Below are positions 454 through 12,486 of a stretch of DNA of 64,000 nt, one piece after another. The position numbers and the translations under genes were made by a program. The notes under the pieces were generated by a model. It was not told the DNA's origin. It searched no databases and saw only the letters and a program-made list of their open reading frames with translations. Source of the stretch: Phytoseiulus persimilis (Eukaryota > Arthropoda > Arachnida > Mesostigmata > Phytoseiidae); the NCBI GenBank assembly GCA_037576195.1, contig CM075102.1:16116745-16180744 (forward strand), given 5' to 3'. Numbering within the stretch: position 1 is the stretch's first letter; each line of letters starts with the position of its first letter.

Positions 454-3400
454 CTAAGGTAGATAATGGTACGTGGATCCTCTGACTTCGATGTAGAGCT
501 TCTCTTCGAGAGACGTCAGGCTTTTCTTGATGAGCATGAGTTCCGCGTCTAGTTGACACAATTGCGCCTCTTCGCTGACAAGGTTCACGAGAGTATCGTA
601 TGACAGCTGTTCATGTTTCTTGAGTAATCGGATCAGCAGAGCCTCCATATAGAATTGCCGATCAACAGGGTTCGTCGCCTTTCCGTTCAGCTTCTGAGCG
701 CTCTGGGACACGAGATAAAGTTTATTTCATTGTTTAGCTCCTTTGAGGGAGATTCGGACAGCTTCTAATTCAAGACCGCAATGAAACGCCGCCCAGAGTG
801 CGTACTGACCCTCTTTCCTGCTGGCTCCACGAGGTTCACAACGTTTGTTCCAGATGTGAAGCCGAGATTCAGAGCGAATTGAGTCGGTTCGTCGAGCTCG
901 TTTGTGTGGCACAACTTCTTGAGTATCTGCATCGGGAACGAGTGGATAAGAATACAAATATTGCGCCCTCTTCAGTGCATACTGCCTCGTTCGCCAACGG
1001 GCGAGGATTCGAAACAAAAATACAGAGACATACATTCGCTTCCTCGAGCTGCTCGAGCACGACTTCCAGATCGACTTTGCTCAGCTTAGTCTTCCTTCGT
1101 ATGAAAGACGCCGAGAGGGTGTCCTCCCCCTCGAAGAGTAGCAGAACGATCGCGGTGAATGCGGAACATTTCATCAAATAAGAACCTCGGGGAAACTCTG
1201 CCTCGATTTCCGCCTGAGCCAAATTATGGAACCACTTGAGTTTCTTCGACGCTTTCCAACGTGGCTCGGGATTGAGTGCCATTTTCTCTCTCGTAGATGG
1301 GTTCTCGCGCTGTCGAGAAACTCTGATTTGTTACTCTGCTCATCACGAGGGAAGTTGAACACATGTACTCCGCTCGACGAACGAAATTTCCAGATACCGA
1401 TAGGAGCCTGGGGTTGCTCTTAGCGTAGATTCCTGTATAGTATTCCAAGTTATCTTTGATGTTTTTCGGAAGCTCCACTTCGGGTGACAGCGACCCATCA
1501 AAGAACCACAGCTCTCTACAAAGGACAGTTACTTCGATGTCCGGAGTTTCTTCCGTTCGCGGGCGGCTCTGATACACCTGGTTCACCAGCCTGCTGTCGA
1601 CTACGTCTCGGAGAACTTTCAGTGCTTCATCACCGAAACTAGCTTTTCCAGCCTGTCGAATGGGCTCCCATTGTAGCTTCAACTCGCTGTATTCCGTTCG
1701 GTTCGCTTTCTAGCTTCATCGAATTCTGCATAACCCAACTTCTCGACGTAAGAAGGAACATCAGCCCTGCGGCCAGAGAGTCGGGAGGAAGAGACTTCGT
1801 ACTCACAGCCAGTAGTGCATCTAGAGCTTTGTTTTCGAATTTCAGATCAGACCAGCGACTCTTCACCAATCGCTGGCGCAGACGAGTCAGATAAGCTTCG
1901 TGGAAGACCACGGCGGAATTCACGTATCTCGCAGCTTTTAGAGCTCGATTCAGCTCCCTCTCCATTCGCTGCTCGTCCCTCTGGGGTCCTGAGCTCAGGA
2001 TACTGTCGTAGAAAATTGCCACGAGCTCCGCCGCTGTTGAACGAACTCATGATGAGTTTGTACTGAAGGCGAATCCAGAACCTTCAGAACGACTCTATTC
2101 AAAATTCGTATCGATCAAATGCAATCTTGGTCTCCTAGTTACTCAGTCTAATCGAGACAGCACCCACACGACTCTTTGGTGAACATCTCGATATTTTTGA
2201 CCGCGTCTCTACAGACCGCAGCGCAGGCATCATCGAACGAGGGATCACCAGCAAAGGCTTCTCGAACCATCTCTGTGAGATTATCTTCAACCCTGAAACC
2301 ATGGAGATGACCGGGAGAAACGAGGTAGTCCGAGTTCTCTTGTTCCTCGAAAGCTGAAAGCGGCATCAGAGTGGCCAATTCGGGTGAGGATGACGTTTGA
2401 ACTCACATCAAAATCGTGTTGACGAATGAGCCTGCGGGATCATTCCCGCCTTCCGAGTTGAAACTATAATCTTCTGCGACATGGTGCGGGAAGGAAGTTG
2501 TGATCTGGAAATCGTCGGGAGCTTTGTGTGATCCCTGTAGCTTCGGATAATGTTCGCCCACCAACGCGCTTGGATGGATCTTATTCGCGAGCGGACACGT
2601 ACTTCAAACGTTTCTAGATCGAATCGGGGGAAGGGACATTCGATATGAAGAGTCAAATGGGAAAATAACGCACCGCCTCAAAGATCAGTTTTCTCCCATC
2701 TCCATGGATAGGTTTCAATAAGCCGTGGAGTTCTTTCAGTTTAGCGTAATCGAGGTTGATCACAGCTGTTCTCAACTGAAATACGAATGATGCCGATTGG
2801 TGAGGCACCGAATCCCGATCCCTGTTGATCAGCTTGCGTGGATTCAGACTACAAGATGATGAACGTGGAGGCGAGAAGCAATATTCTGAACGAGAATTCG
2901 ATGCTTCGAGTTCTGCTTCGCAACGAACCGTTGCTCACGAGCTCTTCGCTTGTGACTCACGTCGTCCCGAGGAGACTGAAGTGAGTGGGTTCACCGCCAG
3001 AAACTCGGCACGTCAGATCAACCTTACCGTCTTTTTGAGGAACTCAGGGTTGTTGGCGAGGATGAGTCTGTGCACACCCTCCAAAGCTGTATCATCGGGA
3101 CGTAAGTACTTCCGAGCCCTCGGAAGTTCACATTCGATAAATTTCTTGGTCTGCAGATTCGGTGAGGCACATTGAATCATCTGACGCCTCGGATGCCGAG
3201 CGAAAACAAGCTGATTTCATTGTCATTTTGGTTCCCACAAACGTTTTGGAGGAATTCCTGGAAACTCTCCGTCTCCGGCATCGTGGTCCAGAAATACTCT
3301 TCGAGGTTCACAAAATAAGCGTTCCTGTATTGCTCGTAGATCCGGAGTCGGTTATCCGTGGCTCCATCCAGTTTCGCTATTGACGCGACCACTGTTGTCA

Positions 3401-4295
3401 AATCATCATTGGAAAAAGCCGGCTTGCCCTGGACAGGGGAATACAGAAAGATCCGTCGTGAAGAAAGAATGTTTGTGGTGTCATTCAGTTTCGTCGTTGT
3501 CCTGATCGCTCAGGAAACCTCCTTCCGTAGGATGCGCTTGTGATATTACCTCTCGGTCTTGGTTGACTGTGCTCATGAGTCTTGCCGTGATTTCATCGCG
3601 AAGTGGGCAAAGAACGTCGTCTTGCCAAACTTCCAACGCCATGAGCTGGATAGTCAGCCTCTCCTCAGACTTGAACTTGTTTATCAGAGTTATCTGTCGA
3701 TCTACTTCGCGGAATTGACGCTCGAGGTCTTCCACGAGTTTGCAGAAACTCAACCATTGGTTGCGGTACGCGATCAGAAACTCCTGAAGACAATGCCGCA
3801 ATCACATTCAGTTCCACTCACGATACTCAGCTTGTAGTTTCCGCATTGGTACGCTAGTCTCCATTGATAGAAATAATCACCACATCGCTGGAACGATTTA
3901 GACGGTTTTCTGATACGTCTCGCACGTGATGTTCGAGAGTCGATCGGAGCGCTCGGTAAACCACATCGATGGACTCTTCTGTGGAACATAAGTGGTGCAC
4001 AACATCGAAGCCAAACTGGAATTGGGCTCTTGTCAGCTTTCCTGAAATTCGATGAATAGGATCCTTGATTCCATACGGCTGCCGCGAGCCATGAATGGCG
4101 AGACTTCTCGTCATCGGTTGTTACCGAAGACATCCTCAGGGACTACCACGGGTGAGTGTTTCCCAACGTTTCCCATAGTGAAGCTTCTGAACTGCGAGAA
4201 TTTTATGTGCTGTAATGCGATCTCGATCTGGGAATGGCAGAGCCTCTACCTGAAACGGTGCGCTGTAGGACATCATTCAGACTTGGTTCCATCAT
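454..4295 (-). CDS. Divergent cullin-family protein (gene A), 15 exons
   Basis: Cullins are scaffolds of cullin-RING ubiquitin ligases: the N-terminal repeats bind substrate adaptors, and the C-terminal domain binds RBX1 and carries NEDD8. Exons I infer (minus): 4295-4250, 4191-4147, 4041-3926, 3887-3822, 3783-3550, 3428-3243, 3150-3028, 2775-2674, 2504-2407, 2292-2168, 2033-1807, 1709-1398, 1309-1034 (or from 1243), 926-810, 702-454. All phases agree, giving 773 aa (751 with the alternative), the usual cullin length. Recognisable parts in order are the N-terminal repeats (ALEVWQDDVL), the FYDSIL / FHEAYL helices, PDIEVTVL before the alpha/beta region, KKLKWFHNLAQAEIEAEF, IVLLLFEGEDTLS, and the C-terminal winged helix LLIRLLKKHEQLSYDTLV. 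The lysine in LLIRLLK, near residue 719, matches the NEDD8 site. The protein ends in YHYLP instead of the usual YxYxA. It is very divergent; CUL3 or CUL4 origin is undecided. The start is the first ATG in frame, but the frame is open upstream to about 4400 behind a possible acceptor, so a further 5' exon is possible. Confidence 0.8.
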
Positions 4296-5464: not shown

Positions 5465-8400
5465 TCACGGCAAGTAGATCAATGTGTCGGTTTCCCCGTC
5501 GTATTCGAGGAATTCTTTTAGAACGAGATCCTCCAGAGCCGCGATGATCACTGATGGTTCTGGAGAGGTTCGAGATGCCAGATACCAGATGGTGTTTTGC
5601 ACAAGTTCTTTCTTCGTAATTTTTGAGGCTCTCTTCGCGAGGCGCACCATGGCTGCCTTGGTCAGAATCACTTCCCTCCTTCTCACGTCGTCTTCCGATT
5701 CGATCTTGGCCACCGTTTCAGGCTGAAAAGAACGGAGAGTTTGACCAATGGGTCCCCAACGCTGTGATCGAGTTCGCTCTCAACTCTTTGGGAGCTCACC
5801 TCGTCATCTTCTTCATGAATAACATCGAGCCGCAAGCCGTGTTTCGGTGATTCAAAATCCAGGTTCAGAGCCAGCGTCTCTCCCGTAGAGCGGCTCTCCT
5901 TCGACACGAGAATCTGCCATGTTTCGGAATGAGACTTTTAATGGTCTGCTCGGACCGCTGATCTCGGATCCCGAGTTCCAGATGGAATCCAGAACCGATT
6001 CAATGTCAAGCTCTTATACTCTCCCGGAGGCCACTCACGTTGAGCTCTATGAGCTTGGCGACCACAGCTCTCAGATATCCCACGCTCAGGTTCGTTTGCT
6101 CGAGAATGGCTTCAAAGGTTTGTTCGTCTGTATTTTCAAACGTGAGCATTACAGCTGCCACAAGCGTATTGCACTGTACATCAGGCGCTCGGTGACGTGG
6201 GTTGAGATTCCATTGCATCTCGACCGTCGAGGAATTGTGAGCCCAGGTCAGTTTCCGGTCACTGTACTCTAACTGCAAAACATCCGCAAAGGAGAGTTCA
6301 GAGACGGAACAATGCTCGGCTTGGCCTGGAGCGAGACATGAGCGTAGCCGACGGACTCCTGCTGCGAGTAAGCAACAAAGAGCGAGAGAACAAACCTTAT
6401 ACAGATCTTCGAAGCTGCACATGATTCTCCGCAGTACCGGTGGTGGCGTAAAGGTGACAGCCGGGGGCGATATCGGCCAAATTTTCTCTCGGAGAACGCG
6501 AATGTTGAATTCGACACCTTGAAAAGTGGGTGCATCGTTCGGCTCACAGTCCTCTTCTAGGAGTGGCTCACTCATCGACTCTCTCATCTGTTTCCACCCT
6601 TTCAATTTATTCAGAGCCCGGAGCGTTGACCCTCCGTCAGCTTCAGGCTCTTTGATGAGGGTCTCCGATCGTCCGAAGTCCCAGGTAGACGCCAGGAGCG
6701 ACATGCGTTTCTCACTCAAAAGGAGATCGAAGAGCTGGTGCTCCATTTGCCTTGCCGTACTTTCCTCGAGGAACTAGAAAAGGTTCATCTTTACCATGCA
6801 AGCAAGCTTGGTAATACAGCGCTCGAGTATTCTCTCCTCGAGGACGCCAGTCTCACCTGGCGGATGAGTCGGAACATTCGGACTTCGAAATGGCTCAAAA
6901 AGGGCCCCTCGCTGAGCACCCTCGCTGTGAAACGATGTGCGTAGAGCCTCGATAATCCTCCCGGGTTCGTAACAAACTGGAATGCCCGAGCCACCTCCTC
7001 CATACGGACACAGGTGAGCTCAGCCGGGCTGTGCCCGTTTCGTACGCTCAGATGAGGAGAAAAGGAATAATCGACGAGCAGTTGATGAGCTTTTGACGAA
7101 ATTCGCTCGTTAATCGATGGCGTGAACATATCGAAGATAAGGGGGGAGCAACTCAAACGGAAGGAACTGAGTACCAGTGACGAATCCGACCGCCCGAGCG
7201 CTCTTGTAAACGGAAAGCAATACAATCATATTGACCAGCCGCCCTCACCTTCGCAACCGATCGATCTTGCCTTCGCGAAGACGGCAGATCGGAAACCCTC
7301 AGAAACCGCGGCTCGCACTGCTTCTTTGTTGATCGAATGCACGAAACTGTCGAATTGAGACGATGCCCTGGAATTCCAATTAAGTAAGTTTTCTCACGAA
7401 GACCCGATCTGGTCGATATTTGAACGCATTATCGTACAGTGTCCCAGTCGAGAAGTCGACTTACTTGACGAGCGCTAATGCAAGCGATTGTGAGGAGTCA
7501 TCATCCTTCGCTAGATGACTTTGAATCTCGTTAAGACCTTGAACTTCGCAGAGAGAGGTTATCTGCAAGGGCTCGTCATTCAGCAAAGACTTCCTCGGAA
7601 TGGATAGCACGCGTAGCAGAAGGGGGCCCTATTTGCCGACGGACGCGTTGATGACTTATATCACACAAAGTCGACCCCGTCGTGCGTAACGTCGTTCTGA
7701 GAGCTGTTCAGTCTCTCATGGCCTTGAGGCATGATGCCGACGGGAACTCCGATGATCACAGAATCCTCACTTCGAACGAGCGGATCCTGGTCTCCGTAGT
7801 CATGAAAGTTAGGCTCCAAGTTCAACAGTAAAATCACTCTCGCTGCCGACTGGCGCGTTGATGACTAATTAACAGAGCGGTGCAGCGATCTCGCCAGGGC
7901 CCGATCTGCATGAGATCGGGAATCTTGGGAATGTACTGGGTGATCAAATTAGGTCGGGAATTTTTTTCGCCATTCTCCTCTTGACTGTTACCAGAGCTCA
8001 GTAGGCCCATTTCGGAATTTTTTTTTGCGAGATGTAGCTCATTCACTCGGCTACATTTCCGACCAATTCCTACAGTCGTTTCCCGTCCCATTTGGAACTT
8101 CACTCTTGAAGAATTTGCAAAATTTTTGTCCCCTCAAATTTGGAGGGCTCGCAAATCTTGCAGAGGCGGCGCAGCTGAGTTCGCTCGGTGTTATGTGGGA
8201 GGGTGTCCATCTGACAAAAATTTCCCGGTGTTATGTCGAAGGGTGTCCATCTGAAGAAAAGTGCCCGGTGTTATCTACATCCCGTTCTCAACTGGGAAGA
8301 ACAACCGAGCCAGAGCATTAAAATGTCGCCAGAATAGCGGGTGCCGCGGAACCTCCGAAATTTGACCGACGAGAGCTCTGTAACTTCTCGAGAAGAGGTA

Positions 8401-11400
8401 CCTGGTCTCGAACCGCAAGCTGAAGTTGCGTATCCTCTCTCCCACCCAATCGATTAGACATTTCCCGGTTGATTTTGTTTATCCATCAAAACTCGACTCC
8501 TGCCCTCGTGGGCAGTATCAGCAAAAACACGAGAAACGAACGATTTTCCATGGCGACTTTCTCATGCTTTGGCTTGTTGATTTTTTGTCAGGTGGACTCC
8601 CTCCCATATCACGTCGACCGAAGTTGGCTGAGCTCTGAATAACAGTAAAAAAAGTGGCGAATGAAATTCCCGACCTCATTTGACCGCCCTGTAGAGTATG
8701 CCCACATGACGTGGCAACGAATTCCGATGGGCGTCAGCCGGAGTTGTTTTTGACTCTCCGATACACAAGTACCCGAGGAAAACGCGGAGAACCGAGGGAG
8801 GGTCACGAGTTTCGAGTTGCAATGTGACGGAGAGGGCGTGAGTCAGGTGGAAACAATTAGGGCTTGAGATCGTGACGTTCCCACGCACGTTGCGTTCACG
8901 GGGTGACCCCTTCTCTCGTCTCACCGGTGTTCGGTCACTTTGTCGTCGCCTCAAGATGGGAAGTGAACTCCGTTCCCGATCTCTGGTGACTCATGATTCA
9001 GGAAGATTAGACTTGGATTCGAAGCCTTCCAATCGACTTCTAACCAGCATGGGTGTGCGCGTGGTCCCCCGACCTCACGGACTGTTGAAGCTGTTCAATG
9101 AAATGAACTGATCTGCGATGTTCATCGCGCGATTCCCTCCCATGGGACAGTTCCGACGCGTATCTGCTTGGATTCACAGTACTACGACGTTTTCCTCCTG
9201 AACGTCTTCACTCAGCAGGGATGGAAACCAACAAACCTTTGCGAAGAAATTTTCACCCTCTTCGGTGTAGCCCAAGTCTCCGAGGCGACACATTCTGTTA
9301 ATTGCTTGTACGTTTCTTTCGTATAAGGGACCTTCGATCTGGAATGGAGCTGATTCCATGAGCCTCAACCTTGCGGACTGCGGAGCGTTCGGAACGAAGG
9401 AAATGTTGCGATTCATTCGAGGCGTTCAGCCGCAATCCCGAAAACCCCCACCGCCCCCCTCCCCCCCCTCCGAAGCCGTGAAGTTGAATGACAATCTCCC
9501 GGTACTCACATTTTCGCTCAAGAACTCGAAGTAAAAACGCATCAAACGACTCTTGAACTCCTTGATTACCACTTTAAAGAAGTGCAGTTTCTCACGAGCG
9601 TGCTCAACTCGATCTCTGATTGCATCAATCTGGGAATGGAGGACCGAATCATCAACCGATCGCTTCAGATTTTCGTCTTATCTGATTATTCGAAGAACAC
9701 GAAAAAAGGTTCTGACTTGAACAGCCTTCATGTTCTAAATGTACTATCCCCTCGTTTGACTACATTCCATGTGCCAGCAGAAGCTCGATTGGAAAACAGA
9801 CCTCGGACTCCCAGTTGTCCAACGTGAGTTTCCCTCGTAGTTTTTGTATAATGTCGTTCGCGTATGGTGTCATGACGCGTCTGCCAAAATATTTTTGGAA
9901 CTTGATGTAGTCTCCCCGACGGATCATATGAATCGAGTTGAAGACCGCAAGGAGCTTCAGGCTCAATACGGCTCCTGGGTCCTGCAATTACGTGCGTTCA
10001 TTATTTGTCCAGGAATGTAGCGCTCTCTCGTCCATCCTCCGGATCTTCGGGCTACTCGAGCTGCTGTTTCTATTTCCGAATGATACTCAGGATGCCGACT
10101 CACTGAAAAGTATTCCCGGAGCAGAACAACCAAGTGATTGTTCAGTTTTTCACGCTCGACATCGAAGACCAGCTCGGCCCAATCGTTGAAGCACATATCG
10201 AATAGTTCGAACTTATCTAAACGCGTCCCAAAGCTTGACAGGAGTGTGTCGTGGAAGAAGAGATATTTACAGTGAGTGGTCCACGACTTGAGGTAAAAAT
10301 CGCAGTAGGCTTCCTGAAAGGAAGGAGATAGAGTATTCCTGGATCACCCGCATCAGTTCTCCTTTCAGTCGATTTCACACACCGCGACGTCTGTCGAAGA
10401 TTCCGTTCGGATTCTGCGATGGCTTACACTCTGTTTGATGCGCGACACCGAGCCCCTCGGAAAAGTTATGATCTCTGATCGGATCTTCGCCCGAGCCTGA
10501 TCTATCCAGAACTTTCTGACGGGTGGCGATTCGGCTTCTTCGCCGCAGATTGCTCTCATACGTGTATAGATTTCATTCGTCCGTCTTAGTCCGTGGGGAA
10601 CTTGAAAAAATCGAAGAGTAATTGAGGTGAGAGCTATGAGGAAGACCTGTCCCCTCCATTTGGGAGTCATGCCAAACGGAGGCCCCGGCCCTCGTAAGAC
10701 TTCTGGGTGTTCTCGGATTCACGAGGAATCTTGAGCTTACCGCCATGCTTCGCGTAATATTCCGAGCTCCACAGCAGTCCGAGGGTGTCCTGTGAGTTGG
10801 GGAGAAGCTATGTTTGAAGGAAACTCAACAACACGCGTCCGCGGCGAGCTGGAGCGACGGGAATCGAACAAAAATCAAACCTTTTCGGCGAAATATTCAA
10901 GAGGCATCAGCTTATCAGCCTCGCCGGAACGTAGGAACTTCTTGAACAGCACGGATACCTCCCGGGCGGCCTGGAAACCGGGTTGTCACTTGAGGGTCCG
11001 TTATTCCCAGGGGGCTTGATAACTATGATATGGAGCGGTGCGAAACGTACTTCTTTGAAGATGACTTTAGACCAGTGCTCAGACATGCGAACCTCCAGGG
11101 ACTGTTGAACTCTATCCGACAAATGCAATTCTTCCGCTATTTTCACGATGCTTCGTTTCCATTGACCAAGCTGGAAGCAGAGTTTCAAGAATCCGAGAGT
11201 AATTCATTTGTGCCAGCGATTGGAGTGCGAACACGCTTCCTTCCGAATATGAGGTTGTATACTAGAAAAGAGCGGGGGGGGGGGGGGGGGGGGGGAATAT
11301 ACTTCACTCGATTCGAGATCCGCACCACTCACTTTGTCGATTGTCTCTATACATGCGGTTCGAGACTCAACGTCTCTCATGCACTTGTCGCCCAAGTTCG

Positions 11401-12486
11401 TCATCATATGCCGCGAGAATGATTCCTCGAAAACCCTGCGAACTTTTGTTCGCAACGGATGGTGCATGGTAGAGAACGATTCCACAATTTTGTAGACTCG
11501 TTCCAGCTCCATAGGGTCAGCACCGTCTTCGAACTGAAAATGTAGGGCCGGGGCCGATCGTAAGACAACCTCCCACTGGGAATTTGGGACAAACAATATA
11601 TTCAGAGTTCGAACGATCAGTCGAGACTCGAGCGAAAATACTCACCGTCTCCCGCGATAGAACTTGAAGCATCTCAGAAATTATAGCGCTGTCCTCCGCG
11701 TTGATGATATTTTCATTCCACAAGTCGACGCAGATGTTGACGAACGAGTTTCCCAGGAGGGGCGGTATGAGCGTGTTGTGTATTCTCGTCAGAAATTCGA
11801 TGGTCTTGATGAATGCCAGCCACTCCTCACAGTACAGTTGGAGAACTCTCCCATCCGACTGAAACCGAAGAAGGTGAGTTCCCGTGGTGTGGAACAGAAG
11901 CTGTCGCCATCTTACCGAAGTTTGCGAACGCACAGGAGCTTTGCGGGCAGTTTCCCGGCCGTCAACACAAACAAACTTGCCTTCTTTTTGGCGGCTTCAA
12001 GCTGGCTCCGGATTCGCTCTACTAACGCAACAACATGGTAGCCGAAATACTGGTAGAGGAAATCTTTGAGTTCCGGGTCGACATTCACAGCGTCTTGTAC
12101 CTCGACGAACAGTTCCTTACAGTGTCTCTCGGATGGTTGCCCTGTAACTCAAAACCATGAGCAACAAGTGTGGCGTCTCTGTTATTGGTCAAGTCACCCC
12201 GATCTGTCGATCAGCTGTGTGAGGTTTCCCCGTCTTGTCCTGAACGCCTGCTCCCCGAAAGATCACGATTTGACATAAGGTCCGATTCCTTCACGAGCCC
12301 TGACCCGATTTCCGGCAGCTCCGGATGACGCTCATGGACATGGGAACGAGTTAGGAGGGGAGCCGTATGGGGAACTTCACCTGATAGTAGCCTGAAGATT
12401 TTCGTTCCTAACTGCTCCCATTTGAGCATACGCGCGCACTCGTCGGTAACGGGGGCTTCTCTCACACCTGGATTGAAAATATTCAT
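5465..12486 (-). CDS. Fused tandem double cullin-like protein, 18 exons
   Basis: Exons inferred (minus): 12486-12381, 12141-11981, 11858-11646, 11533-11333, 11170-11051, 10970-10881, 10789-10741, 10600-10428, 10313-10104, 9981-9802, 9629-9510, 9377-9237, 7628-7465, 7166-6857, 6773-6396, 6272-6039, 5913-5800, 5722-5465. Phases agree throughout, giving about 1,073 aa. Exons 1-8 (371 aa) look like a cullin N-terminus (LKWEQLGTKIF; MELERVYKIV; SSEYYAKHG), but about 100 aa of the second repeat region and the entire C-terminal half are missing. Exons 9-18 (702 aa) restart inside a first cullin repeat (YLKSWTTHCKYLFF) and run to the end: VTNPGGLSRLYAHRF, FNIRVLREKIWP, YSDRKLTW, MLTFENTDEQTFEAI and a winged helix with MVRLAKRASKITKKELV. 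The K in MVRLAK, near residue 1018, matches the NEDD8 site. The C-terminus is IYLP. Only 114 nt separate exon 8 from exon 9, leaving no visible room for a new promoter and start. The alternative is two genes with an unrecognised junction. Exon 13 could also start near 7562, just after the acceptor CCCTTGCAG. Confidence 0.7.
8186..8275. repeat. 40-bp tandem repeat, about 2.25 copies
   Basis: The motif CGGTGTTATG recurs at 8186, 8226 and 8266, exactly 40 bp apart. Both full copies share GGGTGTCCATCTGA, followed by an A-rich run. The array lies in the 1.6-kb intron (9236-7629) of the fused cullin-like gene, by far its longest intron. That intron also has several poly-T runs, so a small insertion is possible. 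Confidence 0.75.
11274..11295 (+). repeat. Poly-G tract (22 G) in a cullin intron
   Basis: An uninterrupted run of 22 G on the plus strand, therefore poly-C on the coding strand. It lies in the intron 11332-11171 of the fused cullin-like gene, about 100 nt upstream of the acceptor used for exon 5. It may be prone to length error in assembly or replication. Confidence 0.9.

Follow-up and report, generated by a model that had tools for sequence, protein, structure and literature searches.

Cullin copies at the locus

We analyzed a 64,000-nucleotide (nt) stretch of the Phytoseiulus persimilis genome (hereafter the window; contig CM075102.1, here C2:16116745-16180744), which lies on a 52 Mb contig of a 181 Mb assembly in 127 contigs and carries three cullin copies, numbered 1 to 3. 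Copies 1 and 2 are spanned by one open frame of 1,127 residues, obtained by joining 19 exons between 12486 and 5465 on the minus strand (Table 1). No stop or frameshift interrupts any of the 19 exons, and the splice sites are mostly normal, with a single GC-AG donor at copy 1 exon 2. The joined protein matched the Pfam Cullin model at 122.8 bits (expectation value [E] 2.5e-35; cut-off 33.2) and Cullin_Nedd8 at 31.0 bits, under the cut-off of 36.9; the Cullin_Nedd8 matches obtained fell between 31.0 and 31.6 bits (E 1.7e-7 to 2.8e-7). These were the sole domains found at E 0.01 or better, and the protein has no large non-cullin N-terminal region. Submitted separately to the Cullin model, exons 8-19 (copy 2) scored 103.3 bits and exons 1-7 (copy 1) 29.9 bits, just under the cut-off (E 3.3e-7). 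Furthermore, leave-one-out codon scores were positive for all six copy 1 exons and for 10 of the 11 tested copy 2 exons, a test that covered every exon except 10789-10741 and 10600-10428.

A first-pass annotation of this DNA had also read a single frame across two fused cullin copies. The frame does run through both, at 1,127 residues instead of the approximately 1,073 then given, and both copies consist of real cullin exons; a complete third cullin at 4295-454 had been overlooked. The end of exon 8 at 10428 (AGT|GTAAGC) and the start of exon 9 at 10313 in the same phase were recovered as described, as was the lack of a C-terminal domain in copy 1, for which no C-terminal cullin exon was found.

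Table 1. Features of the cullin locus. Rank gives the place of the expected exon among the 13 exons of the ordinary CUL2 of the same genome, with its z score from shuffled alignments.
Feature	Position	Strand	Remarks
Copy 1 exon 1	12381..12486	-	ATG; out phase 1; placed by order and phase only; CUL2 exon 1 ranks 12th of 13
Copy 1 exon 2	11981..12141	-	First cullin repeat; GC-AG donor AAG|GCAAGT; CUL2 exon 2 best of 13, z 2.4
Copy 1 exon 3	11646..11858	-	Rank 2/13, z 3.3; z 5.5 against copy 2 exon 3
Copy 1 exon 4	11333..11575	-	Rank 1/13, z 2.0; z 4.5 against copy 2 exon 4
Copy 1 exon 5	11051..11170	-	Rank 1/13, z 1.8
Copy 1 exon 6	10881..10970	-	Last exon fitting the copy 1 plan; contains in-frame ATG 10907; rank 2/13, z 1.5
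Bridging exon 7	10741..10789	-	49 nt; enters in phase 0 and leaves in phase 1; chimera of exon 7 (copy 1) and exon 1 (copy 2) proposed
TGA closing the exon 7 read-through	10667..10669	-	Two-gene alternative
In-frame ATG, unspliced into exon 8	10668..10670	-	Two-gene alternative
Copy 2 exon 2 (exon 8 of the first-pass annotation)	10428..10600	-	Phase 1 in, 0 out; 173 nt; rank 1/13, z only 1.4
Copy 2 exon 3	10104..10313	-	Rank 1, z 2.9
Copy 2 exon 4	9802..9981	-	Rank 2, z 2.6
Copy 2 exon 5	9510..9662	-	Weak acceptor, model uncertain; rank 1, z 1.1
Copy 2 exon 6	9237..9377	-	Rank 3, z 0.7
Copy 2 exon 7	7465..7562	-	Rank 1, z 1.2
Copy 2 exon 8	7249..7367	-	Rank 4, z 1.1
Copy 2 exon 9	6857..7200	-	Weak acceptor; rank 1, z 2.1
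Copy 2 exon 10	6396..6773	-	Rank 1, z 5.9
Copy 2 exon 11	6039..6272	-	SDRKLTW segment of the RING-binding alpha/beta region; rank 1, z 11.3
Copy 2 exon 12	5800..5913	-	Rank 1, z 3.0
Copy 2 exon 13	5465..5722	-	Matches Cullin_Nedd8; holds the aligned lysine (joined-protein residue 1072) and the stop; rank 1, z 9.2
Copy 3, separate full-length CUL2-like cullin	454..4295	-	13 exons; 761 residues; CUL2 phase string

Exon plan shared with CUL2

An ordinary CUL2 gene lies elsewhere in the same genome (C1:1308553-1311981), with 13 exons, 761 residues including the stop and intron phases 1,0,0,0,0,0,2,1,0,0,0,0. Its exon 1 has a GC-AG donor (GCAAGT), like copy 1 exon 2. This gene was modelled from conserved sequence, and copies 1 to 3 had been modelled earlier, when its plan was unknown, from frame continuity and cullin similarity; some of their sites are weak (copy 2 exons 5 and 9, copy 3 exons 1 and 10). 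The phases agreed with those of CUL2 at 12 of 12 introns in copy 3, at 6 of 6 in copy 1 and at 11 of 11 in copy 2, together with the in-phase of the first exon of copy 2. Copy 1 thus corresponds to plan exons 1-6, copy 2 (exons 8-19 of the joined model) to plan exons 2-13 and copy 3 to all 13; no counterpart of exons 7-13 was found for copy 1, nor of exon 1 for copy 2. For the other cullins of this genome, only the ends of tblastn segments were compared with the plan, and these differ from it.

Each copy exon was next aligned globally with each of the 13 CUL2 exons, using 300 shuffles. The expected exon ranked first for 9 of 12 exons of copy 2, 10 of 13 of copy 3 and 3 of 6 of copy 1 (exons 2, 4, and 5), with exons 3 and 6 of copy 1 ranking second and its exon 1 12th of 13. 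These comparisons suggest that copies 1 to 3 are CUL2-derived genes built on this 13-exon plan. Since profile tests of single exons were mostly non-significant, the domain limits within copies 1 and 2 were taken from the positions of the introns in the plan.

Protein comparisons, made among cullins other than CUL4, pointed the same way for two of the copies: copy 3 scored 181 bits against the CUL2 of this genome, 108 against human CUL2 and 95 against human CUL1, and copy 2 scored 92, 87, and 82 bits, respectively. BLASTP of copy 1 against the same CUL2 gave no significant match (E 0.37). The copies are only about 21-27% identical to each other in protein, and a tree of copies 2 and 3, with copy 1 left out, placed them on very long unresolved branches of about 8.8 and 6.0 changes per column. 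At their C-terminal ends, copy 2 has VRLAK and copy 3 IRLLK where CUL1 and CUL2 have IVRIMK in the alignment, and we take the aligned lysine to be the NEDD8-modified site; copy 2 keeps both this lysine and the RING-binding segment SDRKLTW. A homology search with the joined protein scored 7,993 candidates, proteins under about 620 residues not being included, and returned nothing at E 0.001; a stand-alone relative of copy 1 may thus have escaped it. With the alignment of copies 3 and 2 as the query, two distant cullins were retrieved among 7,996 scored.

Two introns of the joined model are worth noting. Intron 4 of copy 1 contains a run of 22 C at 11274-11295 (minus strand), where sequencing errors are likely; being intronic, the run leaves the reading frame unaffected. 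The copy 2 intron at 7563-9236 is 1.67 kb long, far exceeding its neighbours, and holds a 40-nt tandem repeat at 8186-8274.

The junction between copies 1 and 2

The first-pass annotation had set the boundary between the copies at 10428|10313, with exons 1-8 reaching into the C-terminal half of a cullin and no first-repeat exon visible for the second copy. The CUL2 plan moves this boundary upstream. We assign the exon at 10600-10428 to copy 2 as its exon 2, the first-repeat exon said to be missing, mainly because of its phases, its length (173 nt, compared with 164, 161, and 161 nt for exon 2 of CUL2, copy 3, and copy 1), its order beside exon 3, and the position of its split codon; its best CUL2 match is the expected one, if weakly so. 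At the 10600 acceptor this codon lies 11 residues upstream of the F/Y of the first repeat, by our count the same distance as in CUL2 and in copies 1 and 3. By the same plan, the last exon of copy 1 would be the sixth of 13 and would still belong to the N-terminal repeats. Exons 6 and 7 are too diverged to be placed by sequence alone; a multiple alignment set them partly near the four-helix bundle, which may be the source of the earlier C-terminal assignment.

The gap from copy 1 exon 6 to copy 2 exon 2 is 280 nt (the copy 2 stop and the copy 3 ATG are 1,169 nt apart), and a direct splice across it breaks the frame, from phase 0 to phase 1. The 49-nt exon at 10789-10741 restores it, with a phase 0 entry like that of plan exon 7 and a phase 1 exit like that of plan exon 1. 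Its codon score of 0.248 exceeds the 95th percentile of the null (0.174) and stays below the null maximum (0.336). An open 0-to-1 bridging exon whose two splice sites score no lower occurred in 7 of 1,450 overlapping segments from the rest of the window and in 56 of 5,000 simulated sequences. Moreover, no first exon for copy 2 was found between 10880 and 10601 when any ATG in 12486-10641 with a phase-1 donor scoring 3 or more was allowed. Besides starts within copy 1 exon 1, the candidates were two sharing a donor at 12305 in intron 1 and one on the exon 4 donor. An alternative copy 2 first exon at ATG 10659 (MEGT) fits in phase and was set aside, its donor score being below the listing threshold. 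The joined region is single-copy in the genome.

Proposed origin of the joined frame and alternative explanations

These arrangements suggest that a deletion among tandemly arranged CUL2 derivatives merged copies 1 and 2 into a single gene of about 1,127 residues, with the joint at 10741/10600, an interpretation to which we give a little better than an even chance. The array would consist of very fast-evolving cullin genes, and a single deletion that also took the intergenic stretch could account for both missing parts, exons 7-13 of copy 1 and exon 1 of copy 2. One breakpoint would probably have fallen in exon 7 of copy 1 and the other in exon 1 of copy 2, which would make the 49-nt exon a chimera of the two. 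The copy 1 promoter would then drive one mRNA, spliced at 10881|10789 and 10741|10600.

Several results weigh against this interpretation. Aligned with exon 2 of copy 1 or copy 3, the exon at 10600-10428 showed no match (z 0.4 and 0.5); it was left unplaced in a wider cullin profile (z -0.2) and had a codon score of -0.043, not above the non-coding null (median -0.083, 95th percentile 0.071), although negative codon scores also occur in two accepted exons. A profile put exons 6 and 7 together at CUL1 422-470, in the C-terminal half, at a non-significant z of 1.4 from 12 shuffles. Once the splice-score threshold is relaxed to 2, chance alone yields bridging exons often, in 517 of the 1,450 segments. 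The bridging exon itself has no clear CUL2-exon match (best z 1.5, with exon 7 ranking 10 of 13), so the argument for its chimeric origin comes down to its phases. Finally, the first-pass annotation had seen no start codon between the copies, and there is one: ATG 10670, in frame and unspliced into the exon at 10600-10428, would give copy 2 a start of its own.

This ATG is the basis of a two-gene alternative, in which copy 1 would stop at TGA 10669-10667 and encode a truncated, N-terminal cullin fragment of 351 residues, and copy 2 would start at ATG 10670 and encode a cullin of 823 residues. Both frames are open, stop and start overlap as ATGA, and MAFFT aligned a tryptophan of the extension (10670-10601) with the first-helix tryptophan of cullins. 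That residue, however, lies 30 residues before the motif F/Y, compared with 24-25 in CUL1, CUL2, CUL5, the CUL2 of this genome and copy 1. The extension also has a non-coding-like codon score (-0.146), gave no profile match (z -0.4) and ends in an acceptor at a position conserved in the same-genome CUL2 and copies 1 and 3; there is, in addition, scant room for a terminator or promoter. Because of the non-coding-like extension, the tryptophan spacing and the conserved acceptor, we rate two overlapping genes lower, as unlikely. A start further upstream, from a promoter within copy 1, would let copy 2 be expressed separately, for example from ATG 10907 in exon 6, which is in frame across both 10881|10789 and 10741|10600. 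Exon 6 nevertheless fits the copy 1 plan (rank 2 of 13), and no independent promoter sign was seen, although none was looked for; we regard such a start as quite improbable.

The locus might instead be a degenerating relic, left by the deletion, transcribed little or not at all, with open frames that are leftovers of recent function. The extreme divergence of copies 2 and 3 would fit decay, as would a copy 1 that is only marginally recognisable by Pfam, the weakness of two copy 2 acceptors (exons 5 and 9) and the lack of a coding signal in the exon at 10600-10428. We nonetheless consider decay distinctly unlikely, given a frame intact through 19 exons, the positive codon scores in both copies and a 13-exon plan kept since the split from CUL2. 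Neighbouring paralogues are also spots where assemblies are prone to fail, and sequence could have been lost between the copies in this way; copies this different in protein would hardly collapse, though, and the contig is 52 Mb long in an assembly of 127 contigs, so that an assembly error appears highly improbable.

Predicted layout and function

If copies 1 and 2 are indeed fused, the protein would begin with repeats 1 and 2 and part of repeat 3 from copy 1 and continue with repeats 1-3 of copy 2, its four-helix bundle, its RING-binding alpha/beta region and a NEDD8-accepting winged helix. The first-pass annotation had likewise proposed an N-terminal scaffold present twice ahead of a single RING-binding end. 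That proposal stands as the best single reading, now with a deletion mechanism and a phase-compatible bridging exon; the junction and the domain assignment given with it do not.

By analogy with its family, the product would most likely act as a ubiquitin ligase scaffold of the CUL2 type whose stalk has been lengthened. Exons 1-3, and with them a whole first repeat, are present in copy 1, and copy 2 lacks exon 1; adaptor docking would be expected most at the intact N-terminus of copy 1, with the RING protein and NEDD8 at the copy 2 end. We put forward only tentatively, and with some doubt, the fuller proposal that in-frame deletion in the array has yielded a functional single-chain cullin in which two cullin N-termini follow one another ahead of one RING/NEDD8 end; such a protein might dock two adaptor or receptor modules, or one at an unusual distance. 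Cullins, which serve as ligase scaffolds, are few in number and highly conserved. If the fusion is real, a genome that kept its ordinary CUL2 and elsewhere evolved a fast-changing CUL2 array with an apparent double stalk would offer a test of how far the stalk can be rebuilt, and a clear example of exon phases letting a deletion weld two neighbours in frame.

Comparison with known cullins

CUL2, the scaffold of cullin-RING ligase (CRL) 2, is the closest known system. The copies share the 13-exon plan and phases of the same-genome gene, copies 2 and 3 match CUL2 best, and an aligned NEDD8 lysine and an RKLTW-type motif are present. They differ from it in being only about 25-29% identical to the CUL2 of this genome over the aligned parts, and the fused model would have, by estimate, slightly more than two additional N-terminal repeats and no first exon for copy 2.

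The CUL2 stalk is described as three tandem repeats, with Elongin B/C and the substrate receptor bound by the first (PMC8682755). The CUL7 and PARC (CUL9) genes are called gene-fusion products (PMC2785787), so that they too would be fusion-derived cullins with extra N-terminal mass; in CUL7, in contrast, the extra part consists of non-cullin domains, with the cullin region starting from CR2 (PMC9507964), and here it would be a second cullin N-terminus from a tandem copy. The assembly of CRL7-FBXW8 with CUL1-RBX1 likewise brings two cullins into one ligase, as two proteins bridged by FBXW8-SKP1 (PMC9507964) instead of the one chain predicted here. Six cullins of Trypanosoma cruzi, in a family of 489 to 1,230 residues, are stated to have two cullin domains, at the N- and C-terminus (PMC5976635). 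Each of these may be a single cullin that the Pfam model hits in two separate segments, which is what we found for copy 3. In the papers where it was met, 'tandem cullin' means ordinary cullin repeats, and this wording was rejected as a precedent. Apart from the T. cruzi reports, the portions of open-licence full texts returned by our literature search turned up no cullin with two N-terminal regions, CUL7, PARC and the CUL7-CUL1 assembly being the nearest cases on record there.

Copy 3 and the genomic surroundings

Copy 3 matched Pfam Cullin at 214 bits (E 6e-63), and its best solved-structure matches were CUL2. A search of the 10 kb adjoining the window on its left revealed no cullin. Ten open frames of the window were compared with Pfam at E 0.01. 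Two of them lie in copy 3, and one of these (872-1330) gave the only match; the eight between 13338 and 58156 gave none. No clear known gene was recognised in 13000-64000, most open frames of that part being outside the Pfam test.

Elsewhere in the genome, tblastn recovered ordinary CUL1-like, CUL2-like, CUL3-like, and CUL5-like cullins, as well as a further cullin locus closest to CUL3 at 38%, which is probably CUL4. A weak match to copy 1 at C2:6874910-6875323 (21%, E 0.0067) was dropped after a scan of the locus gave no cullin signal. On the 100 kb contig C26, an open frame (L028, 2984-3985, minus strand) has a divergent cullin C-terminal match of 39.3 bits and may be an APC2-type or other distant cullin.

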